Assembly: GCA_905181875.1 (NCBI GenBank)
Contig: CAJIZH010000004.1
Location: forward strand, 1-64,000
DNA: 64,000 bases
Direction of reading: 5' to 3'
Source of the DNA: Flavobacteriales bacterium UBA6770
GTDB lineage: Bacteria > Bacteroidota > Bacteroidia > Flavobacteriales_G > Salibacteraceae
The notes under the pieces are model-generated. The model saw only the letters and a list, made by a program, of their open reading frames with translations. It made no database searches and was not told the origin of the DNA. This document shows positions 2,317-17,234 of this stretch, piece after piece; positions within the stretch are counted from its first letter, which is position 1; each line of letters starts with the position of its first letter. A program made the translations under genes and the position numbers.

Positions 2317-3511
2317 GCAGTATGAAATTTATCTATTGTTTCAAGCACAAACTCAATTTCTGAATCGCTTAGAGATGGAAACATGGGGATGCTTAAACAG
2401 TGTTTGTAATAATTTTCCGAATGTATCAGTTCTTGATGTTGCGTTTCATTTTTATGAAAGGGCATTTGGTGAACTGGGAAGTAATGAATTTGGGCGAAAA
2501 TTTTCTTTTCTCTTAAAAAAGCGTACAAGCCTGCCCTATCCTCCACTTCAATAACATACAAATGGTAGGCATGTCCTTCTACAGATCCACTATGCCTTAT
2601 GATGTAATCTTTTGAATTAAAAAATGCGTTGTATTGCTTCGCAATTTCCCTTCTTCTTTCAATACCCTTATCGGCTCTTTTTAATTGGCTATTTCCTAAT
2701 GCTGCCTGAATATCGGTAAGTCTATAATTATACCCTAAAGTTTGCATCTCCATGTACCAAAGGGGATAATTCTCTGGTGGATTTTCTAGTCCCCAAGCAA
2801 CGCTTAAGTCGTTTTCGAACTCAACCGAATTTCTAGTAATTCCGTGAGTTCTGTATTCAAGTAGTTTTTCATAAAGGAGTTGATTATTAGTCGTAATCAT
2901 TCCTCCCTCACCACAGGCAATATGTTTCACAGGATGAAACGAAAAAATGGATAAATCAGAAAATTGACCGCTTCCGCAAGTTTGAGCATTCCCGTTAGAA
3001 TCTACAAAGAACCCGCCAGGTGCGTGGCAAGCATCTTCAAGAATCCAAAGGTCATTGGCTTGTGCCAAGGTCTCTCAACTTTTCAGAATCTACCGCTCTT
3101 CCAGCAAAATCGATGGGAATAACTCCCTTAAAAAAACCTTTCGGTTTAGAAGATATTATTTCCTCTACCTTTTCTATATCAAGCAAATAGGTGTCGGGAT
3201 CTATATCTACAAAAAACAAATTTGCGCCAACATCCTGAATTTACACAATTGGCACTTGCAACAATAAGTAGATGGGTGAACGATATTACATTATCCCCTT
3301 TTTGAAGATCCAATGCCAATACACTGAGATGAAGTGCCGCGGTGCCATTTGAAACTGCAACTGCAAATTTGGAATTAACGTATTTAGCAAAATCCAATTC
3401 AAATTTTTCAATTTCTGGACCTTGGGTTAAGTGTGTTGAACTGAGAACTTCTGCTACGGCTGTAACATCTTCTTCAGTAATGGACTGCCTACCATAGGGT
3501 ATTACGCTCAT
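2313..3511 (-). CDS. pseC: DegT/DnrJ/EryC1 aminotransferase, PseC-like (frameshifted)
   Basis: PLP-dependent transaminase that would aminate the 4-keto sugar made by PseB. The N-terminal part (3511 to about 3260) begins MSVIPYGRQSITEEDV and contains the SNGTAALHLS PLP-binding segment. The C-terminal part (2313-3068) has EDACHAPGG and the Schiff-base lysine in SIFSFHPVKH, followed by GEGG. Two frameshifts separate them: one near 3240-3270 and one near 3070. The middle piece, reading VGANLFFVDIDPDTYLLD, is in a third frame. Corrected, the protein has normal family length of about 395 residues. The breaks look like consensus errors because no coding sequence is lost. Confidence 0.8.
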
Positions 3512-3530
3512 CTTTATTTAGACTTACAGT

Positions 3531-4533
3531 TCTCCTAAATGATCGACAATCAAAGACCTTAAATCAGAAACGCTAAGCCAGGAGTCATTTGTACCGGAAT
3601 TATAAGAATATGAATAAAACCTTTTTTGCTGAAAAATTAGAGCAGTTAAATTTTATTTCTAAGGAAATATTAGATTATACTTCAACTCATAAAAAGTTTA
3701 TTTTTTTTGGTGAAATGGGAGTAGGTAAGACTACTTTAATAAAAGCCTTATGTTTGCACCAGGTCTAATCCCTACAATTTTCTTTTCACATTCTGGCCCT
3801 ATAGCTTCAGCTACATCCACAAGTTTGTAAGAAGGTATCTTGGGAACTATTATTTCACCTCCCCAAGCATGTTCTAATGCAAACAATACCATTTTTACTC
3901 CATCTTCCAATGAGATATTAAATCGGGTCATGGAATCATTAGTAATCGGTAAAACTCCCGTTTTTCGCTTATCCATGAAGAAAGGAATAACTGATCCGTT
4001 GGACCCCATCACATTTCCATAACGAACAACTGAAAACCGCACTTCATTCCAGCCTTTGATATTATTGGCAGCAATAAACAATTTGTCGCTTACCAATTTT
4101 GTTGCACCATATAGGTTTATTGGGGCGGCAGCCTTATCAGTACTTAATGCAACTACTCTTTTTACATTGCACTCAAGGCATGCATTAATAAATTCTCAGC
4201 ACCATATATATTTGTTTTAATACATTCCATTGGATTATATTCTGAGGCAGGAACTTGTTTCATAGCAGCAGCATGAATAACATAATCAATCCCCTTAAAG
4301 GCTGTTTTAAGGCGTTCATAATCACGTATATCTCCAATAAAATAACGAATTCCAGGATATTTACTCTCTGGAAAAGTCAGATTCATTTGATACTGCTTTT
4401 GCTCATCTCTAGAGAAGATGACCAAACGCTTAATGTCTGGGGAATTATCTAAAATATTCCTAACCAGTGCCTTGCCTAAAGAACCAGTACCTCCAGTAAT
4501 TAGAATCGATTTATCGCTAAATTGTCCTTTCAT
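3531..4533 (-). CDS. pseB: UDP-GlcNAc 4,6-dehydratase (inverting), PseB; interrupted by foreign sequence
   Basis: First enzyme of pseudaminate-type synthesis. Visible features are the N-terminal Rossmann motif GGTGSLG, the MKQVPASE segment typical of the inverting dehydratases, and the catalytic YGATK. A frameshift near 4165-4180 splits the N-terminal 123 residues from the rest. The frame then runs normally to VGIRPG and stops matching at about 3755. The expected C-terminus (YNSGTNDSWLSVSDLR to the stop TAA) reappears at 3531-3608. Between them, about 150 bp that should encode some 50 PseB residues is instead the start of tsaE on the plus strand. The gene as written cannot make an intact protein. 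Start ATG at 4533. Confidence 0.78.
3610..3768 (+). pseudogene. tsaE 5' fragment (N-terminal ~48 codons) lying inside pseB
   Basis: A plus-strand ORF of 52 codons begins at the ATG at 3610 and includes the P-loop GEMGVGKTTLIKALC. It resembles the N-terminus of TsaE, the ATPase needed for the t6A tRNA modification. The match ends just after the P-loop, at about 3752-3757, where pseB sequence resumes on the other strand. The rest of TsaE is not in the window. It reads as a fragment joined into pseB by rearrangement or by misassembly; see findings. Confidence 0.65.
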
Positions 4534-4711
4534 AATTTTACAACATAAACTTTAAAGAATCAAGATAGATCCCAGTATTCAGCCTCCTTTTTAGTCCAAC
4601 CAAAGTACAATGTACCATCTTAGTTAAACCAATGCAATAATAATCATTCAAACAATTCTCTTTTACATTATTACGATATAAAAACCAATTGAAATGACAA
4701 GCCATTTCTTT

Positions 4712-5639
4712 CTATTTCCATGAATCCCTGCTAATCTGAGAAATTATTTCATTTGTAGCAATCTCAGCACCGGAACTATTCAAATGGTCAATATCACTAT
4801 AATTTTCCATGGAAAGTTCACTTTTAATCCTGATTAGCCTGAAATTTGAATCTAAAGTCACTACCGATTTTTCGTAATTCGACAAATACGAAGTATTAAA
4901 AAAGTCCGAAAGGACATTGCTGGGCAGCTCAAAAAATGTCACATCTATTCCTTTTTTTTGAATATAGTAAGCCAGATTAATAAGTTCATCAAAACGCGCC
5001 TGTCTGAACTCTTCCTCCTTCAAGTCAAAATATAATTTTTCACGTTTTCTTATTACACTATCAGTACATATGGTATTTGATGGATGGTGGCCTCTAAGAA
5101 TTGAATTAAATTCGAGTAATTCTCTTTTCTGATGTCCATTAAAAATATTCTTAATTCCTTTAGAGGCCTTTTTCTTAACAGCGAAACACTTTCCCGATAT
5201 CACCAATCTGAGCGATCAATTGTTCATTGGAAATTTCATGAGTCAAGTAGCGATGAATTGGGTATGCCTCAAAATTATCAGCTTTATCGGAGAAGGAAAT
5301 GGGAGAAACTTGAATGAATATTTCTTTAGGAAAAACACTTACATCTTTTAAATAATCTTGAACTAATAACCTAGAAAACCGTGGTCCTGCAGTTGCGATG
5401 CCTAAATTAAAAGTCTTGTAATTGTATTCATCAAATAGAAGAGGGTTAATTCCAGCATAACAATGAGAATTTCCAACAAATAAAATGTCAAGGGAATCAA
5501 ATTGAGCTTTATTTTGAATGCTTAAAATATTGTTATTCAAAGGCACATCAGCATCAGCATTATCCCATTCACATATTATTCTAACGGGCACATAAAATAA
5601 AAAAAAGAATAATGAAATATGAATCCAAAACTTCCTCAT
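4712..5639 (-). CDS. SGNH-like membrane-anchored acyltransferase partner (frameshifted)
   Basis: N-terminal membrane anchor (residues about 5-22), then LFVGNSHCYAGINPLLF, which resembles block I of SGNH/GDSL enzymes (nucleophile Ser in GNSH). Near the C-terminus, DIDHLNSSGAEIA gives an Asp-x-x-His pair like the catalytic D/H of the family. A frameshift near 5180-5210 joins two ORFs into about 308 residues. It starts 3 nt after the MBOAT gene ends. MBOAT plus SGNH pairs, such as AlgI/AlgJ, O-acylate surface glycans, and that role is inferred here. The acyl group and acceptor are unknown. Confidence 0.65.
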
Positions 5640-5642
5640 ATG

Positions 5643-7077
5643 TTAAAATTGAAAGTAAACAAATTCTTGAGGTTTACCAGCAAACCAAAATATGAGATAA
5701 CAAACACATAAGTAACACAACCAACGCAAGAATCTATTATCAATCAAACTGTTAATTTTAAATCCGTATTCTTCTCTCCTCATGATCCATTCGATGCCTA
5801 TACTTAACCCAATCAACGCATACAAGCGTCTAGGAATATTTACCTCAAGAGATTCAAACAATGAATAGTCAAATAGGCAAGACAAGTATTGAATAGCATG
5901 ACTTACACTATCTGCCCTAAAAAAAACCCATGCAATTACGGTAAGAATAAACGTCAATAATATCTTAAAAATTTCCAGCACAGAGGGGAAAAAGCTGTTT
6001 TCAGCAACAACTCCTAAATTACTCCTATTCTGGCCTAACAACAGAAGAGGCAAAAAATACAATGCATTTAAAACTCCCCATATAATAAATGTCCAATTTG
6101 CTCCATGCCAGAACCCACTAACAATAAATATTATAAAGGTATTTCTAATCTTAGAGAGCTTGCCTCCTCTGCTGCCACCCAAAGGGATATATAAATAATC
6201 TCTAAACCAAGTTGATAATGAAATATGCCATCGCCTCCAGAATTCGGCAATGTCGCGGGAAAAGTAAGGAAAGGCAAAATTCTTTTTTCAAATCAAAACC
6301 CAGCAAGCGAGAACTCCCAATAGCAATGTCACTGTAACCAGAAAAATCACCATAAATTTGAAAAGCAAAAAATACAGCACCAGCAATTCTTGCATCCGCA
6401 TTAATTGGTCAGAACTATTAAAAATCAAATTAGCGTATTCAGCGCAATTATCTGCAATAACTACTTTTTTAAATAGTCCCCATAAGATTTGTTGCAAGCC
6501 GTCGACCGCTTTATCAAAATCAAATTTCCTTTTTTTGTAAAACTGAGGTAATAAATTAGTAGCCCTTTCAATCGGTCCAGCAACCAGTTGAGGGAAAAAG
6601 CTAACAAATGCGAAAAATGAAATTATATCCTTAGTTGGTTCAAGTTGTTTTCGATAAACATCGATTGAATAACTTAGCGTTTGGAAGGTATAAAAACTAA
6701 TACCCACAGGTAAGATAATATTCAACCTCGATGGTTCAAAAGCAACGCCTAACAGTGTAAATGTTTCAGCAAAACTTTCGGAAAAAAAATTGAAGTACTT
6801 AAAAAAACCGAGAAAGCTTAAATTTACAATTAAACTAAGGCCTAAAAGTGCCTTTCTCTTCGCCTTTAATTTAGCCCTACCAAGAGCAACTCCCACGAAA
6901 AAATCAACGCAAGAACTGAATATAATGAGGCTTAGAAACCTCCAATCCCACCAGCCATAGAAAAGAGTTATTGCAGCAACTAATAAAAAGTTACGTTCTG
7001 AAATTGAAAATAATAATTTAGTAGAGAATAAATACTACAGGTAAAAAAAAAGAAAATTCAATTGAATTAAATAACAT
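5643..7077 (-). CDS. MBOAT family O-acyltransferase (frameshifted)
   Basis: Integral membrane O-acyltransferase of the AlgI/DltB type. The reconstructed start is ATG at 7077 ([19 protein letters not shown], the usual MBOAT opening). The protein continues through FYGWWDWRF, then the conserved [17 protein letters not shown] and VAGPIERA. The [15 protein letters not shown] and [22 protein letters not shown] stretches are out of frame in the given sequence, and the catalytic His lies in SGFWHGANW. Frameshifts fall near 7020, 6375 and 6285. With these corrected, the length is about 478 residues, normal for the family. It is followed by the SGNH partner. Confidence 0.78.
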
Positions 7078-7114
7078 TTACCACTGTATAATATAAAGTG
7101 TAGAAAGCCGGACT

Positions 7115-8896
7115 TTAATTTTCGGATAAACTTAATTCCTCGTAGCTATGTTCTGCAATTATTTTACCCCTTTCCATTTCAATAATTCTATCGCAATGTC
7201 TGAGTGTATCGTACCTATGAGCAATAATAACCATTGTTATATTTCCCTCGCTTAAGGAACGTATGGAATCCGTTATTTCTTTTTCAGTTTCATTGTCCAA
7301 AGCAGAGGTCGCCTCATCAAACACTAATATTTGCCTATTGAAGTAAAGTGCTCTTGCTATTGCTAATCGTTGCTTTTGGCCTCCAGACATGTTCATTCCA
7401 TTCTCTCCTAAGCTACTATTAATTCCATCTTCAAGAGTATCAACAAATTCTTCAAGTAAAGCCATTGACAAACATTCAATAACCCTTTTTTCGTCAATAT
7501 CCTCAGATTCAACTCCAAACGCAATATTTTCCTTTAACGAAACGTCAGAAACAAATACGTTTTGCTGCACATAACCAAAATTATTTTTCCATCCTGGCCA
7601 GTCCTCAGAGGCTAACTTCTTTCCATCAATAATTATATCTCCTGAATCCAATTTATAAAAACCTAGCAAAATACTAACAAGAGTAGTTTTCCCAGAACCT
7701 GACCTTCCTATTATTCCTAGTTTTTCACCTTTAGCAATCTCTAACTTAGGAATGTCTATCTTAAAATTGTTGTGCTCAACATAACTAAAGACCGCATCTT
7801 TCAATTTTATTGATTTGAGAAGATCAATTTTATTATCAACTCCTCCTTTGTGCGATAACTCAGTTGGTTCTAAGGATAATTTAACTACATCCACTAAATA
7901 ACCGTATTGCCGAATTAAAAGCATTCCTGCCATCATTCTACTGATGGAAGGTAATAATCTGTATGCTGAAGCACCGAATAGGCCTAAAAGAAAAATCATT
8001 CCTTTCTGTTCTTCCTTTAAAAAAAACAAGGAATAAATAAAAATCACCACTATCCCAAGAACAGCACTAAACTCTATCACTTTTGGAAAAACATCCATAA
8101 GCACTGACTTGATTACATTTAATCTGGAAAACGTCTTTTGATCGTTGTCGAATCGACGAACAAAAAAATCTTCTCGGCTTGAAAGTTTCACATCAATAAA
8201 ACCAGAAATGCCTTGCCTTACCTTATTGATTATTTGACCATTTAAATGATATATTTCTTTTCCTATGGACTCCATTTTTGATTTCGTCAACCAATAAAAC
8301 AGGGCAGATATAGGGCCAAGGACAATAATCAACAGAAAAAACACATTGATATTAAACAGTATTAATCCTCCCAAAATAAAGACCAGTATAAATAATTCTG
8401 AGAAATTTTGAATAATTGGTATGATCAAAAAAGTTGCAAATTGCTGAGTACTTATATATACATCACGAAGTAGGTCCGAACTATTATTCTCTTGGAAAAA
8501 GTCTAGCGGTTTATGCAAATAAACATTAAACAGTTTTCTTGAATAAAACCTTGATAACCCGAATGAAAATTTTGAAATAACATATTTAACATAAAGAAAA
8601 ATTAGTGCCCTTAAAATAAACACGACTAAAAGAAATAGATAGACAAGTAATAAAAATTGCTCTACGTTTTCTAGCTTTAAAAACTGATAGACATTGTTAA
8701 CAATTTCATGAGTAAGAATTTCCTGAGGAGAACTGGAAATTGCCAGAACAGGAAGCACCAGAGACAATCCAACGACATCAATTACGGCACCAACTAGCGT
8801 TAAAAGAAGCACTTTTAAAGCTGTTTTTTTTTGCGAGCGATTCAAAAGTCTGGCAACCTTTTGAATCATCGAAATAATACGGAATCGATTCTGCAT
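7115..8896 (-). CDS. ABC transporter, fused permease and ATPase (flippase/exporter type)
   Basis: 593 residues: six predicted transmembrane helices in residues about 25-330, then an ATPase domain. The ATPase domain has Walker A GRSGSGKTT, signature MSGGQKQR, Walker B ILVFDEATSALD and the H-loop (IIAHR). The layout is that of MsbA/PglK-type half-transporters, which act as homodimers and flip lipid-linked glycans. Its position between the Wzc-type kinase and glycan-modifying genes favours export of a lipid-linked oligosaccharide or polysaccharide unit over drug export. The frame is intact. MsbA itself cannot be excluded from sequence alone. Confidence 0.8.
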   Translation of the reverse strand: MQNRFRIISMIQKVARLLNRSQKKTALKVLLLTLVGAVIDVVGLSLVLPVLAISSSPQEILTHEIVNNVYQFLKLENVEQFLLLVYLFLLVVFILRALIFLYVKYVISKFSFGLSRFYSRKLFNVYLHKPLDFFQENNSSDLLRDVYISTQQFATFLIIPIIQNFSELFILVFILGGLILFNINVFFLLIIVLGPISALFYWLTKSKMESIGKEIYHLNGQIINKVRQGISGFIDVKLSSREDFFVRRFDNDQKTFSRLNVIKSVLMDVFPKVIEFSAVLGIVVIFIYSLFFLKEEQKGMIFLLGLFGASAYRLLPSISRMMAGMLLIRQYGYLVDVVKLSLEPTELSHKGGVDNKIDLLKSIKLKDAVFSYVEHNNFKIDIPKLEIAKGEKLGIIGRSGSGKTTLVSILLGFYKLDSGDIIIDGKKLASEDWPGWKNNFGYVQQNVFVSDVSLKENIAFGVESEDIDEKRVIECLSMALLEEFVDTLEDGINSSLGENGMNMSGGQKQRLAIARALYFNRQILVFDEATSALDNETEKEITDSIRSLSEGNITMVIIAHRYDTLRHCDRIIEMERGKIIAEHSYEELSLSEN

Positions 8897-8927
8897 GACG
8901 ATCTAAAATCTTTAGGTATTAATTTCT

Positions 8928-11355
8928 TTAACTTTTTTCATCTTCTTGACCATCTCCATCTCCATCTCCATAGCCATAACCATAGCCATAACCATAACCG
9001 TAACCGTAACCGTAACCGTAACCGTAACCGTAGGAATATTGACCAATGTAGCGTCCAAACGGATCATTTTTAATATTGTTTAAAACTAGTCCTACTTTTT
9101 TAATTTCATTCTTAGCTATTATTTCTTCCAATATTTTAACCGTACGTGGATAAGCATTATCGGTATTCAACACAAAGACCAACATTTCTGCTTGTTTAGC
9201 CAACACAACAGCATCGGATATCATAAGCACGGGAGGTGTATCCAATATGATAAACTCATATTGTTTCTTCAATTCATCTAATAAAACTTGAACCTCATTA
9301 CTCATAATTAATTCAGAGGGATTCGGAGGAATCGGTCCGGATGTTAAGATAGAAAGATGTTCATTTTCTTGGTTTTTTACTATAGTATCGTTCAGTAGCG
9401 TATTCCCTGTGATAATAGTAGATACCCCTGTTTTTTTACTCAACAGAAAATGCCTTATTGACACGCGGTTTGTGCAAATCAAAATCCACAATAATGGTCT
9501 TCTTTCCTGCAGCCGCCAAAATTCCTGCTATATTAGCTGAGGTAAACGTTTTACCCTCTCCTGGGTAGAGGGACGAAACTAAAATCGTCTTTCCAAATAC
9601 ACCATCGGCATTAGAAAGAAAGAAATCTAAATTCGTTCTAATTGTTCGAAACGACTCCGCTAACGCACTTTTAGGTGCATCTGTAATTTTAAGGTATTCT
9701 TTAGACGGTTGCCCACCTCTTACTCCTCCAATAATTGGAATTTTAGTAACACTTGACAATTCAGGCACGGAAACCAACTTAAAAAACAAAAATGATCGAA
9801 TGGAACCAATTGCAAGTGCCAAAGCCAATCCGATTAAAGTTGGGATCATTTTTAGCCGCTTTTTATTAGGAGCTACGACACCTACCGATCTAGGGTTTTC
9901 TATTACTCGTGTTTGAGAAACTATTCCCGCTTGTGCTATAATAGTTTCCGCTTTCCGCTGCAAAAGAAAATTCATTAACTCTTCATTTACTTTTAATTGA
10001 CGCTCTATATTCAAAAGTTCCCTTTGATTCTTTGGCAGGTTTCTTAAATTATTTCTTTTTTCAACAAGTTCAGCATTTAATAGCTTCAGTTTATCCTCAG
10101 CAGAACTCTTTATATTTCTTAAATAGGTTAATAAATCCGAACGCACTTGAATTATTTCACTATCCTTAATAACAACCATATTGTTGCTATTTGTTGCGCT
10201 ATTTAATAAGTTCTTTTTTTCAATTTGTAATTCGTAAATACTATTCACGGACATCAGCACAAATGGATCTTTTAAATGAACAGTACTTGGAGGCAGAAAA
10301 GATTGTGCGGTATAATTATCCTTAGATATGTAAAATTCTAAATCGTTAATAGAACGTAAATTCAATTCTAAGCTTTTAACATCTATTTCTAGTTTGGCCA
10401 ATTGCGCAAAAGACTGAATTTCCTCTCTTTCTATATCTAGTATAGAAACACTGTCCTTGTAACTCTCGCGGTTACCTTCTATATCATCAATCTTTCCTTG
10501 AACATCTTTGATCTGCAGGGAAATAAAGGTTTGTGTATTTTCATTTACCTCCTGTTTATTGATCAAGGTGTATTTTTTATACACCTCAGAAAGTGTGTCT
10601 AACACATCAACTGCTCTTTCAACGATATGATCAGTAAGTGTAAACTCAAGAACACTTGTATATTCAAGGGATTCAATAGTAAGCCCGGACTTAATTCGAT
10701 TAATTGTAACCTCCCTATCATTGAACTTAAAAAAGTAATTGATTTCCTTTAAGGACGTCAAATGTGATTTGGTGATATTAAAAGTTCGGTGAATCACAAA
10801 TGCAAAGCCATCTGCAATAAACTCCTCTTCAAAGTCCAACATTCTTAATACTTCTTCCTCTCCTTTGAAGAAAGACAACTGCACGGTATTCGTGTCTTGA
10901 ATTTGTAATTTAATATTTCCGCCTGCCCTATTGGCATTGCCAATAGGTTCAACACGGAATGGCGTGCTTTTATAAACCTCTGTTGTCTTTATACGCCCCT
11001 CAATAAAATAAGAAACGTCCAGATCTAGCCGATCCAACACTTCAGAGATCAGATTACTTGACCGAATAACTCGTTTTTGGGATTCTACTTGATCATAACT
11101 ACCATAAGCACTGTTTACGCCTAACCCAGCGTACAACTGCTGCTGATAATCGACCACATCAGACGCTTTTAAAATGACCCTTCCTTTTGCTGCATAAACA
11201 TCTTGCAATCTGTAAGAGTAAAATAGCCCAATGCCAAATCCGAAAAGCGGTAAAGCAACTAGCAAGTACCAATTACTCAGCAAGGCCCTTAACACTCTTT
11301 GGAGGATTAAAGAGTTACTCTGTGTGTTTTCCGTATTGCCTAACATAATTAGCAA
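8928..11355 (-). CDS. Wzc-type polysaccharide co-polymerase / tyrosine kinase (frameshifted)
   Basis: Controls capsule or exopolysaccharide chain length and export. The N-terminal Wzz-like domain has a membrane helix at about residues 33-50, then a long coiled-coil periplasmic part and a second membrane helix after PRSVGVVAPNKK. The cytoplasmic kinase has Walker A LYPGEGKTF, Walker A' IIVDFDLHKPR and Walker B FIILDTPP. The frame breaks near 9440 in a poly-A tract (minus strand), splitting off the last 170 residues; the two ORFs together give a full-length BY-kinase. The C-terminal tail carries eleven Tyr-Gly pairs, then three Asp-Gly pairs, replacing the usual tyrosine cluster that is autophosphorylated. 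Confidence 0.85.
8949..9032. repeat. Hexanucleotide tandem repeat coding for the (Tyr-Gly)11(Asp-Gly)3 kinase tail
   Basis: Fourteen 6-bp units read on the plus strand as ACCGTA (six copies), ACCATA/GCCATA/TCCATA (five copies) and TCCATC-type (three copies). On the minus strand they encode Tyr-Gly and Asp-Gly dipeptides in the kinase tail. The unit is a multiple of three, so slippage would change tyrosine number without breaking the frame. The third-position pattern (ATA block beside a GTA block) suggests expansion of sub-blocks. Confidence 0.9.
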
Positions 11356-13124: not shown

Positions 13125-13531
13125 TGAAAACAATGGACCTCATAGAAGAATTGTATTTCGATATTGAACCTATCGTTTTCTACAGGTCTCTGCTATCTAA
13201 AGAGCAGCATGAGGCATTTACTGGAAGTGAGGCTAATATTACTGATAAAGCCAATACCGATTTCAACACCTACTCCAATTACATTGTGGGGAAAAACATA
13301 CTGCTAGAACCAGGGAAATTAATTCTTCAAGAATGGAGAGCTCAAGAAGAAAACTGGCCCGATTATCACTTTTCCACAGTTCAGTTTAAGTTAAAAAAAT
13401 TGGATAAGGGAACGCACCTTACTTTTATTCATAAAGGAATTCCGGAAGAGTATTTTGAAAGTATTTCAATTGGCTGGAACGATTATTATTGGGAGCCTCT
13501 AAAGCAATATTTCAAAGGATTAACTTCCTAA
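13124..13531 (+). CDS. SRPBCC/AHSA1-like domain protein
   Basis: 135 residues with the AHSA1 START-like pattern. A YRSLLSKEQHEAFTG-type opening leads to the GKNILLEPGKLILQEWR beta strands and a C-terminal helix with WNDYYWEPLKQYF. The fold holds a hydrophobic ligand or contacts a chaperone; no ligand can be named. It is coupled to the zinc-ribbon gene and ends convergently, 12 bp into the 3' end of the GT2 fusion gene. Confidence 0.75.
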   Translation: MKTMDLIEELYFDIEPIVFYRSLLSKEQHEAFTGSEANITDKANTDFNTYSNYIVGKNILLEPGKLILQEWRAQEENWPDYHFSTVQFKLKKLDKGTHLTFIHKGIPEEYFESISIGWNDYYWEPLKQYFKGLTS

Positions 13532-15475
13532 TAACCTCCAACCTCGAGCGAGAATTGAAAGATCATTCCGAACACTAAAATCCTTTGCATACATGAGGTT
13601 CATTTGAGTCACTTTTACCTCGTTATGTTCCCCCACTATTTTTGCCATACTAAGAATACTAGATTTTATAGTAGGTAAATCGTACAAATTTCCTCCACTT
13701 TTCTCATATCCTACCCATGTTTTTTGACCAAAAAGCACTGACACAGCATTAGAAAACAACTTCCACGAGTGGTCAATTAACCAAGCCAATATTGGAAATA
13801 ACATAATTACGATAACTGATGAAACCAAGTCAAAAAGTCGCTTATTTCTTAAGTTTTTGGGTTTACTAATTGCGTTAATATTCAACACCGAATACAATTC
13901 TCCGCTGGTATTTATAGAATTTGACCCTATAACAAACATGCTTTCAGGCGGAGCAATTTTATAATCCAATTTTGCACCATCCAATTGAGACATTTGTTCT
14001 AATATCTTACTCGTTTCTATACTCTCGGCGCAAAAGATTACTTCTTCAATATTAAAAATGCGCGTAATTTCTCTCAGTTGGTTGATATGACCAACAAAGG
14101 TTTCATCTGAGTCATCGATTACTTTATCAGAAACCCTGGCAATAAAGTTTGGCTCTATGGTAGTTTGTTCCATCAATTGCTCAACTCGTTCTATTTCCTT
14201 CGCCGAACCAACAATTGCAAATCTTCGTTTGGTAGAATTTCCAAGCTTAAAACCAAACAAATTGATTTTATCTAGCAACAGCTTCACTGCAACACCTATA
14301 AACAATGCAACCGCAGATCCGACTACAATCACCGCTCGAGAAAACCGATACGATTCTGGCAACAAGGAATACAATACAAGAATAACCCCAGTGCCAATCA
14401 GCATTCCTCTAACAAAATTTCTCAACAAAAACGGACGATCGTAAGCTCCATTAAAAAACGAACTTACCACCCAAATAAAGGAATACAAGGGCAATAACAA
14501 TTGGACTAAATCTTGAGGCGTTTCAATTCCTGTATACTCCTGGTACACAATTAAAGTAGCTAAAAGGCCAATTAAAAAAACTCCAAAATCCAAAATAGCC
14601 ACATAACCGAGTCGAATGAAATTCACAGCTAAGGTTACCGACGCTCGCAAGTAAATTGCTCCGTGTATAAGCAGCCCAAACAACAATGCATTGTTTTTTG
14701 TAAAGTGCTTTTTGGCAAAAATGGCCATTGCTCTATAAAATACAAGCACATAATTGACGCTTGTTTTCTTTGTGCTTTCTCCTTTATAGTGAATGATTGA
14801 AGTGTCAGAATAATAGACATTCTTATATCCACCAAGCTGCAATCGATAGGATAAGTCTATATCCTCTCCGTACATAAAAAATGTTTCATCAAGTAATCCA
14901 ACTTTATCTAAAGCTGACTTTCTTAACAACATAAATGCTCCGGAAAGCACATCTATCTCATGTGTTTCATCTTCGCTCAAATAAGTCACATGGTATTTTC
15001 CGAATTTTCTTGATTTAGGAAATAGTCGGGAGAAACCGAACATTTTATAAAATGCAACCATGGGCGTTGGAAGTCCCCTTTTTGATTCAGGTAAAAAACG
15101 GCCTTTTCCATCCAACATTCTCACTCCGAGTCCACCAACATCATTGTGTTTTTTCATGTAAGCAACCACTTTATCAAAAGTGTCTTCCTCTACAATAGTA
15201 TCGGGATTAAGAAGCAAGGCGAATTCTCCATTGCAATCTTTTAACGCCAGATTGTTTCCTTTTGAAAAACCTAAATTGTTAGGACTTGCAATTAATGAAA
15301 CGTTTGGAAATTTCTTTCGAACCATCTCTACCGAACCGTCCAAAGAATGATTGTCAACTACGATTACCTCAAGATTGAGGTTCTTGGATGCACGTTCAAC
15401 CGATATAAGGCATTGTTCGAGAAAATGCTTTACATTATAGTTAACAATGATGACCGACAACTCACATTCAGACAT
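13520..15475 (-). CDS. GT2 glycosyltransferase fused to Rossmann and sugar-transferase-like domains
   Basis: 651 residues. Residues about 1-240 are a rhamnosyltransferase-like GT2 domain: SVIIVNYN, LLLNPDT as the DxD-type site, and GEDIDLSYR. Four to five membrane helices follow (about 265-400). A Rossmann-like domain (FAIVGSAKEIERV) covers about 410-500, as in the CoA_binding_3 part of polyisoprenyl-phosphate hexose-1-phosphate transferases. A further helix comes after NKRLFDLV. The C-terminal tail has WVGY and YAKDFSVRNDLSIL, echoing the catalytic domain of that family but without its full active-site set. It may assemble glycan at the inner membrane; whether the transferase half is active is doubtful. 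Confidence 0.7.
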   Translation of the reverse strand: MSECELSVIIVNYNVKHFLEQCLISVERASKNLNLEVIVVDNHSLDGSVEMVRKKFPNVSLIASPNNLGFSKGNNLALKDCNGEFALLLNPDTIVEEDTFDKVVAYMKKHNDVGGLGVRMLDGKGRFLPESKRGLPTPMVAFYKMFGFSRLFPKSRKFGKYHVTYLSEDETHEIDVLSGAFMLLRKSALDKVGLLDETFFMYGEDIDLSYRLQLGGYKNVYYSDTSIIHYKGESTKKTSVNYVLVFYRAMAIFAKKHFTKNNALLFGLLIHGAIYLRASVTLAVNFIRLGYVAILDFGVFLIGLLATLIVYQEYTGIETPQDLVQLLLPLYSFIWVVSSFFNGAYDRPFLLRNFVRGMLIGTGVILVLYSLLPESYRFSRAVIVVGSAVALFIGVAVKLLLDKINLFGFKLGNSTKRRFAIVGSAKEIERVEQLMEQTTIEPNFIARVSDKVIDDSDETFVGHINQLREITRIFNIEEVIFCAESIETSKILEQMSQLDGAKLDYKIAPPESMFVIGSNSINTSGELYSVLNINAISKPKNLRNKRLFDLVSSVIVIMLFPILAWLIDHSWKLFSNAVSVLFGQKTWVGYEKSGGNLYDLPTIKSSILSMAKIVGEHNEVKVTQMNLMYAKDFSVRNDLSILARGWRLLGS

Positions 15476-15985: not shown

Positions 15986-15993
15986 TATTTTTG
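15986..15993 (+). promoter_or_regulatory. Candidate Bacteroidota -7 element upstream of the PID-CTERM gene
   Basis: TATTTTTG fits TAnnTTTG and lies 19 bp before the ATG at 16012. A TTG occurs 25 bp upstream, longer than the usual 19-23 bp, so support is partial. Confidence 0.35.
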
Positions 15994-16011
15994 TAAATTA
16001 AGAACGATTCC

Positions 16012-16237
16012 ATGAAAAATTACACACTCAAAGTAATAGCAACTTTTTCTTTTGTAGCTATGATGGTACGTTGGTACTGATGTTTTGGCCGGTCCTCCAG
16101 GCGGCGGCGGTGGACCTGGTGGTGATGGCGGATGCATTCCTCCTCCATGTGTGCCTATCGATGGTGGTATTAGCTTGTTGGTTGCAGCTGGTGTTGCACT
16201 AGGAGGGAAAAAAATATTTGACTCTTTGAAAGACTAA
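16012..16237 (+). CDS. PID-CTERM-like exosortase substrate, small secreted protein (frameshifted)
   Basis: Signal peptide MKNYTLKVIATFSFVAMM, then a frameshift near 16068-16076. After it comes a Gly/Pro-rich segment (GPPGGGGGPGGDGG), a short CIPPPCVPIDGG motif, a hydrophobic stretch (ISLLVAAGVALGG) and a basic tail (KKIFDSLKD). A Pro-Ile-Asp-Gly motif before a membrane helix and basic end is the layout of Bacteroidota PID-CTERM-type sorting signals. Such signals are cut by an exosortase, and one lies 15 bp downstream. The mature part is only about 30-40 residues. The break is one indel; the rest of the frame is clean. Confidence 0.65.
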
Positions 16238-16252
16238 TTCAGCACTGCCTGA

Positions 16253-16786
16253 ATGAAGTTCATCTCAATATTAAAAAACAAATTGGTCAGGTTTATCCTG
16301 ACTTCTTTTTTTCTATTCATTTCTTGGTTTCTTCTTTACGATTTGTGGTTGCATCCAGCTGGGTCAGCTGATACTTTTATCATAAATATAATCGTTCACA
16401 ATAGTGACTGGTTATTGAGTGCAATCGGATACGCTACCCTACCAACTGATATTCTTGGTGCTTCTATTCGTACTGTTGGAATTGATGGTTCTCACGGAGT
16501 TTGGATTGGTGATCCTTGCAATGGGCTTTCATTATTTGCTCTTTTTACTGGATTTGTTTTGGCTTATCCTGGCCCCGTGAAAAGTAAAGTCTGGTTTATT
16601 CCTTTTGGAATCTTTACAATTCATATTCTAAATGTTATTCGTGTTACTGCACTAGCAATGATTCAAAACTTCTCGCCCGATTACTTAGATTTCAATCACA
16701 CCTATACGTTTACTATTGTGGTATACTCCTACGTATTTTATCTATGGTTCATCTGGAGCAATAAATTAAGTGATGTCAAAACTTAA
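16253..16786 (+). CDS. Exosortase family protein (XrtF-like)
   Basis: Polytopic inner-membrane transpeptidase of 177 residues with about five membrane helices. The catalytic triad is visible: Cys89 in GDPCNGLSLF, Arg130 in NVIRVTAL and His149 in FNHTYTF. Exosortases cut C-terminal sorting signals and pass the protein to the cell surface or a glycolipid. The gene lies between a small protein with a fitting sorting signal and a small associated membrane protein, the genomic arrangement of flavobacterial exosortase systems. Assignment to XrtF specifically is inferred from this context. Confidence 0.85.
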   Translation: MKFISILKNKLVRFILTSFFLFISWFLLYDLWLHPAGSADTFIINIIVHNSDWLLSAIGYATLPTDILGASIRTVGIDGSHGVWIGDPCNGLSLFALFTGFVLAYPGPVKSKVWFIPFGIFTIHILNVIRVTALAMIQNFSPDYLDFNHTYTFTIVVYSYVFYLWFIWSNKLSDVKT

Positions 16787-17234
16787 AATAGTCAGTGCTA
16801 CCCTAAGTCTTTTTATTCTGGGCTTCTTTAGGGAGTTCCTATTTGAAAATATTAATGGACATTTGCACTATCTCTGGAAAGAAGAATCAAATCCATACCT
16901 TCCTGAAAGCTTATTTTTCTTGGAAAATGTATCCTATTGGAACCTTTATTACGGCAAGTTTATCCTGATTCTATTATTCAGTATTTTGTATTTATATGGG
17001 TCTTTAGTCCTGATAAAATTGTTTTTTAAAGAACGATTATACCGCAAATTCACCCTATTCTTCTTCGGAGGAATTTTCCTACTCGCGGTACTCATTTTTG
17101 CTATTGGCTTTCCGTTTGGAGCCGAGCATGAGACATATGGAATAGCCCGAAAATTGATAGAGTTCATACAATCTCCGCTTGCATGCTTCTTTTTAATACC
17201 CGCTTTTGCTTTATATAGAAAAGAAAAAAACTAG
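16773..17234 (+). CDS. Exosortase-associated small membrane protein
   Basis: 153 residues with four predicted membrane helices (about 7-23, 58-84, 96-117 and 132-150) and a short FREFLF segment after the first. It overlaps the exosortase gene by 14 bp when started at ATG 16773, so the two are translationally coupled. The size, topology and position match the protein that accompanies XrtF exosortases in flavobacteria. Its role is unknown. Confidence 0.6.
   Translation: MSKLKIVSATLSLFILGFFREFLFENINGHLHYLWKEESNPYLPESLFFLENVSYWNLYYGKFILILLFSILYLYGSLVLIKLFFKERLYRKFTLFFFGGIFLLAVLIFAIGFPFGAEHETYGIARKLIEFIQSPLACFFLIPAFALYRKEKN

Follow-up and report, generated by a model that had tools for sequence, protein, structure and literature searches.

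Exosortases are best known as enzymes that sort numerous large surface proteins, and the parts of the papers examined here do not name the group that they attach in bacteria. A 64,000-nucleotide stretch of contig CAJIZH010000004.1 from Flavobacteriales bacterium UBA6770 (hereafter the window) raises the question of what an exosortase would make from a substrate that carries almost no cargo. The first-pass annotation had described a compact exosortase system in which the enzyme has a single, very short substrate of the PID type and is coupled to a membrane protein, and the results below support this description. The genes and matches concerned are the following:

16012..16080 (+), N-terminal, signal-peptide half of a PID-CTERM precursor, 22 codons followed by TGA; the leader resembles those of intact precursors from the same genus
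16064..16237 (+), C-terminal half of the precursor, Gly/Pro-rich, with CIPPPC, VPIDGG, a hydrophobic helix and a basic tail; 57 codons plus stop, without an ATG (NF046080)
16151..16216 (+), match to positions 1-22 of 25 of the PID_CTERM profile (profile search)
16253..16786 (+), exosortase XrtX, 177 aa (NF046081 profile, conserved residues and AlphaFold2 model)
16773..17234 (+), homologue of the XrtX-associated membrane protein, 153 aa, with an alternative GTG start at 16770 (NF046082, alignment and AlphaFold2)

In a profile search, the enzyme scored 197.9 bits against NCBIfam NF046081, passing the curated cut-off of 170, and it was the one XrtX match in the window genome. Cys89, Arg130 and His149, which had been proposed as a triad from the window alone, were all found, and C89, N127, R130, H149, F153 and W165 were invariant in an alignment of 42 XrtX sequences. 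Judged by profile and conserved residues, the protein is an exosortase, predicted to reside in the inner membrane, and by analogy with the exosortase, sortase and archaeosortase families Cys89 is its putative nucleophile. The AlphaFold2 model was helical and confident (mean pLDDT 90.8); a Foldseek search with it against solved structures gave no match at E ≤ 0.001, and a sequence search of the PDB found no relative. Assignment to exosortase F (TIGR04128) was rejected, as the window enzyme scored 86.6 bits (85.4 in a second run), below the cut-off of 90.

The gene for the small membrane protein overlaps the stop codon of XrtX. Its product scored 69.0 bits against NF046082 in a profile search, under the equivalog cut-off of 75, but its position and conserved residues agree with the family, including R20 and R126, which were invariant in an alignment of 32 members; we therefore call it a homologue. 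The model of this protein was also helical (mean pLDDT 93.4), and Foldseek against solved structures returned no match at E ≤ 0.001. The suggestion of a small helical membrane protein coupled to the exosortase was thus borne out. On the other side of the enzyme, XrtX starts 15 nt past the stop codon of the PID frame, the spacing given at first pass. The window resembles the NCBIfam trio of XrtX, PID_CTERM and the protein associated with XrtX (NF046081, NF046080 and NF046082) in that XrtX and PID_CTERM pass their cut-offs with the same order and motif; it differs in the lower score of the membrane protein and in a frame break within the precursor.

The frame at 16064-16237 encodes GPPGGGGGPGGDGGCIPPPCVPIDGG, followed by the hydrophobic helix and the basic end, and the C-terminal part of the small protein (frame 16085-16234) scored 40.9 bits against PID_CTERM NF046080, with a cut-off of 26. 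The leader, which begins at the ATG at 16012, runs into a TGA at 16078-16080 after 22 codons and lies in a different frame from the PID part. The signal peptide, read by eye, and the PID tag are therefore not in one open frame in the window, and the precursor frame of 55-75 residues originally proposed does not exist there; the CVPIDGG motif, membrane helix and basic end that were listed with it are present, but in a frame other than that of the leader. In three genomes of the same genus (G001, G002 and G003), the leader and the PID part occupy a single intact frame of 73-74 residues from the ATG. The same holds for the database proteins P0010-P0012, intact precursors that differ by few residues from the two window halves (P0011 is found on 16 contigs; P0010 and P0012 have no listed source). 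Given these intact, near-identical precursors, the window break either arose in assembly or is specific to the strain, and does not represent a conserved frameshift.

A second gene in the window is divided in a similar manner:

9436..11355 (-), Wzc-type chain-length/tyrosine-kinase protein, first part (TIGR01007 positions 1-67)
8928..9491 (-), Wzc-type protein, last part, in another frame (TIGR01007 positions 68-200)

Here the tyrosine kinase at 8928-11355 falls into two overlapping frames that together make up a single profile match, which is probably a second assembly error or break near that of the precursor. Both breaks could be real and the locus a relic decaying in this strain. In an aligned block of 10.7 kb with 95.8% identity to the closest relative, G002, every length difference except the precursor break is a multiple of three; sequencing error should have left further frame changes in this block, and the split of Wzc points in the same direction. 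Against this, both XrtX and the membrane protein have unbroken frames and share 96-98% identity with their G002 counterparts, near-identical precursors are intact in other assemblies, and the window genome is an 83%-complete draft. Decay is accordingly improbable, and assembly error is the likelier source of the frame breaks. Whether the system functions in the window's own strain is uncertain, given the frame-broken precursor, and near-identical intact proteins exist elsewhere.

The one-substrate layout was next compared with the genomes at hand. PID_CTERM matched one place in the window genome (2.6 Mb, 83% complete) even at E ≤ 10, and the PEP-CTERM profile gave no match at E ≤ 1, so that for these two tags the single-substrate layout read from the window stands, with no other sorting-signal protein found. 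Among 100 genomes, the window's own included, 57 encoded at least one PID protein that passed the cut-off, and in 53 there was exactly one; the others had five (G097), three (G010) or two (G035 and G067). A second, lower-scoring exosortase was seen in G010, G067, G071, G108, G138, G215 and G235, and that of G010 (L087) has its own PID mini-precursor upstream.

We found that the small gene is not lost where the exosortase is kept. All 47 genomes with XrtX over the cut-off (same 100 genomes) retain a PID protein, and at 43 of the 47 loci its gene immediately precedes XrtX on the same strand. For four of the 47 (G037, G039, G060 and G077), the PID match in this position is below the cut-off. As for the remaining loci, the PID gene is just downstream of XrtX in the opposite direction in G025 and G026, about 5.5 kb away in G045 and about 8 kb away in G073. 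The order of PID gene, XrtX and associated protein is the same in the window and its relatives. In a partly overlapping set of named GTDB loci (the best 80 of 372), PID was directly upstream in 72 of 80; 79 of the 80 have more than 300 nt upstream and eight are without PID. In this set, uncultured Flavobacteriales and Crocinitomicaceae were the named carriers nearest to the window. One XrtX relative (L306), beside which no PID gene was recognised, comes from a contig that bears the label Candidatus Saccharibacteria and is likely mis-binned Bacteroidota DNA.

A larger sample of 396 genomes from the same class (394 of which reach 90% completeness with no more than 5% contamination) gave a consistent picture. 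XrtX exceeded its cut-off in 107 genomes, and 105 of these had a PID-CTERM match at E ≤ 0.05; only G192 and G324 lacked one. When PID was set against any exosortase at E ≤ 0.001, a match that includes XrtF-like and other forms, 194 genomes had both, 12 had PID only, 36 had an exosortase only and 154 had neither (Fisher 2.4e-58, relatedness not corrected). Of the 36 with an exosortase only, 34 fall under the XrtX cut-off. The number of genomes with a strict PID match was 163 at a limit of E < 3e-5 and 169 by the profile cut-off. Four genomes (G269, G285, G364 and G380) have strong PID-CTERM proteins with no exosortase match at E ≤ 0.001; perhaps these assemblies are incomplete or the enzyme is divergent. 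The profile scores and the conserved adjacency exclude chance.

The precursors of XrtX genomes are small throughout. With the window's own left out, 46 of them measured 62-80 aa (median 73), and a rough rule, which breaks down for some rows, e.g. G014 and G038, put the median length from the estimated signal-peptidase site to PID at 21 residues. By the same rough rule, the mature peptide in relatives is nearer 20 residues than the 30-40 first estimated, and the second mini-precursor of G067 has about six residues between leader and PID. A Cys pair stands shortly before PID in 44 of the 46, with the exact motif CWPPPC in 31; four of the 46 (G025, G026, G045 and G073) are not directly upstream of XrtX. 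The corresponding numbers in the named set (best 80 of 372 loci) were 69 and 40 of 72. The XrtX-adjacent PID proteins of G094 and G097 do not carry the pair. Among 20 hand-picked PID proteins not next to XrtX, only one had it; the second copies in the XrtX genomes G035 and G037, outside these 20, carry CWPPPC, indicating that the Cys pair tracks XrtX genomes and not strictly adjacency.

The position of these cysteines would allow a lipid anchor: if the Cys by PID were acylated, in the way proposed for MYXO-CTERM proteins, removal of the helix by XrtX would yield a mini-protein held by its lipid. The frequency of Cys shortly before PID in both sets is consistent with this, and in the accessible text on the myxosortase system conserved Cys residues are required for cleavage (PMC11980579). 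We nevertheless regard lipidation as unlikely, because the pair is missing from PID proteins of other lineages and from those of G094 and G097, there are two cysteines and not one, and a scan of seven window genes revealed no acyltransferase.

To place the precursor in its genomic setting, we considered 42 XrtX loci, obtained from the 47 XrtX genes over the cut-off by way of 45 contexts (G028 and G033 being left out), less three at contig edges. A large protein with a T9SS tail is encoded directly upstream on the same strand in 24 of the 42, and the gap between its end and the PID start is usually no longer than about 70 nt. All 24 had a T9SS type A sorting domain at E ≤ 0.01, though not every tail passes the curated cut-off of 23 bits (17 in G014). 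They are interrelated and form one family by BLAST (E ≤ 0.001, no low-complexity filter, so repeats may add to the scores), and come from 12 of the 21 taxonomic families sampled. A 25th upstream gene, in G092, was judged a spurious frame, since BLAST gave no homologue for it, and was left out. T9SS tails are abundant; nevertheless, if a 5% chance per locus is assumed and relatedness ignored, the binomial probability is about 9e-21 for 24 of 42 loci and 5e-11 for 12 of 21 families. The named set (best 80 of 372 loci) showed a T9SS protein upstream in 36 of 70, and the PID gene overlaps or abuts some of these genes. The other 18 of the 42 loci have no large T9SS gene directly upstream, G009 having only a 220-residue piece of the cluster. 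In G025 and G026 (L044 and L042), the inverted PID gene beyond the XrtX pair is still right behind a T9SS-family gene, so the T9SS gene and the PID gene appear to have been relocated together. Two tandem T9SS-family proteins precede PID and XrtX in G014 (L036, about 3246-9718, +).

The window itself is an atypical member, with its broken precursor and no adjacent T9SS gene; other genes sit upstream of PID. The same-genus genomes G001 and G003 keep a T9SS-family relative about 8 kb away. A full-length homologue of the G001 protein was not found in the window genome, only partial matches. At E ≤ 0.01 the T9SS tail matched 111 times in the window genome (G000), fragments included, which makes for a very large type IX secretome.

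Beyond direct adjacency, the T9SS family occurred anywhere in 34 of the 45 XrtX contexts, as compared with 8 of 40 background stretches, and the polysaccharide-export proteins behaved similarly, namely Wzc (24/45 versus 1/40), Wzm (10/45 versus 0/40) and Wzt (13/45 versus 5/40). The background consisted of arbitrary 20-kb stretches at round coordinates chosen by the analyst, and the XrtX contexts average 17 kb. A different neighbour had drawn attention in the window:

13520..15475 (-), GT2/sugar-transferase-like fusion (by its domains), not counted as a part of the system

Its distance of 0.5 kb had been taken to hint at attachment to a glycan or glycolipid. When its co-occurrence with the three genes was examined in 60 other exosortase contexts of up to 20 kb, the fusion was near an exosortase only in the same-genus genomes G001-G003; elsewhere the T9SS protein and Wzc are what recurs. 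A neighbour limited to one genus does not support that hint.

Taken together, these data favour a reading to which we assign a probability of roughly 0.55, namely that XrtX trims a tiny precursor at PID and likely transfers a peptide of about 20 residues to an acceptor for a polysaccharide and type-IX-secreted surface layer. As predicted from its sequence, the mini-precursor would be exported by Sec and its leader removed by signal peptidase I, and the helix would hold it in the inner membrane with the basic tail in the cytoplasm. By analogy with exosortase, sortase and archaeosortase families, XrtX would then cut near the PID motif and pass the leftover peptide, about 20 residues rich in Gly, Pro and Cys, to the acceptor by transpeptidation. 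The acceptor would serve the building of the polysaccharide and type-IX-secreted surface layer, and the gene neighbourhood, together with the biofilm phenotype of the related XrtF in Flavobacterium johnsoniae, suggests a role in surface adhesion or matrix assembly. Since almost no cargo remains, the peptide is probably not something to be anchored; the processed peptide would be the product itself, and probably serves as a small handle or link.

A peptide this short could instead be a signal, freed by the exosortase in a pheromone-like manner, with the Cys pair forming a small disulphide loop and nothing being anchored. Peptide-signal systems have a dedicated processing membrane protein nearby. 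The window places such a protein next door, and the mature segment of about 20 residues, with its strongly conserved Cys pair and Gly/Pro-rich arm, would suit a signal. The peptide, however, is conserved across many families, unlike fast-changing pheromones, its recurrent neighbours are T9SS and polysaccharide genes, and the eight neighbour-cluster representatives read included no evident receptor or kinase partner, so that we give a signalling role little credence.

That the mini-protein is not a cleaved cargo, and instead regulates XrtX or the upstream-encoded T9SS protein or joins one of them as a membrane subunit, would agree with its minimal soluble part, its conserved helix with small residues and the fixed order of PID gene, XrtX and associated protein, but is quite improbable, since motif, helix and basic end make up the layout of an exosortase substrate, and a substrate tag better fits both the several PID proteins beside a single exosortase match in G097 and the PID tag on a large MSEP-CTERM protein in G207. 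The latter protein has 973 residues (742.9 bits; L161, 3615-6536, -) and ends in the PID_CTERM match, which argues that PID_CTERM is a true sorting tag. In this respect MSEP-CTERM/XrtN resembles the present system; it differs in that its protein is large and multi-helical with a VIT-type match, not a mini-peptide.

Returning to trimming and transfer by XrtX, a related system with a phenotype is that of XrtF, which like the window combines a small exosortase with a coupled membrane protein (Fjoh_1448/1449). According to the available text of PMC10936215, deletion of xrtF or the coupled gene in F. johnsoniae leaves much less biofilm and no zorbs, like T9SS mutants; the same text shows that the phenotype is not specific, two mutants outside T9SS and the exosortase scoring alike. 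In a cyanobacterium, both biofilm and the levels of PEP-CTERM proteins in the exoproteome are described as depending on an exosortase (PMC12188702, in the part available). Taking 205 bits or more as a clear XrtF, we identified 15 XrtF genomes. PID was over the cut-off in 4 of them, matched at all at E ≤ 2 in 11 and was without a match at E ≤ 2 in 4. In seven of the 15 (G136, G165, G254, G304, G320, G336 and G398), an unlinked mini-precursor of like layout was recognised by eye, at E from 3e-10 to 0.8, that of G398 being weak (E 0.8). Hits in G190, G233, G384 and G213 were rejected, as they do not look like mini-precursors. G336 has a second, XrtX-like exosortase about 4 kb from its mini-precursor. 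Unlike those linked to XrtX, the mini-precursors of XrtF genomes lie elsewhere in the genome and lack the Cys pair. It is a tentative and rather doubtful extension that XrtX, and with it XrtF, makes a cargo-less, Pro/Gly-rich peptide of about 6-25 residues, conjugated at its C-terminus, that locks a type-IX-secreted adhesin to the polysaccharide matrix, the unlinked PID mini-precursors being the missing XrtF substrates behind the biofilm phenotype.

Other known systems share parts of this layout. PEP-CTERM/EpsH has the same signal peptide, motif, helix and basic tail, the invariant Cys, Arg and His, and a polysaccharide neighbourhood, with a median of eight instances per genome in the accessible text (PMC1569441), as compared with one tiny substrate here. 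The window likewise has a polysaccharide-export neighbour, Wzc (in two frames), which is enriched near XrtX; since its genome lacks a PEP-CTERM match at the limit given above, we rejected its assignment to PEP-CTERM/EpsH. MYXO-CTERM/myxosortase and GlyGly-CTERM/rhombosortase are alike in their C-terminal tripartite tag, membrane protease and surface display, and the MYXO-CTERM motif contains a Cys (accessible part of PMC11980579); they employ other protease families and larger cargo than the window.

The first-pass annotation had judged the layout to be little studied, and this holds. Our search of the open-access literature found no paper containing the term PID-CTERM, mentions of XrtX that were unrelated, judged by their titles, and no biochemical test of XrtX or of a PID-CTERM protein, and the available part of a 2025 paper states that the targets of XrtF are not yet known (PMC12188702). 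The portions available of two papers that treat both exosortase and type IX secretion (PMC7468200 and PMC10936215) do not mention an operon of T9SS protein, PID and XrtX. What is already known is the naming of the three families in NCBIfam; what is new is the T9SS-linked layout with one mini-substrate.

For the exosortases as a family, a substrate that consists of no more than a leader, some 20 residues and a sorting helix, and that usually occurs once in a genome, means that the attached group could be read directly by mass spectrometry. The unlinked mini-precursors of XrtF genomes are concrete candidates for XrtF targets and make the substrate question directly testable, without settling it. 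Moreover, that the precursor gene so often follows one for a type IX-tagged protein links exosortases with the main secretion system of the Bacteroidota.
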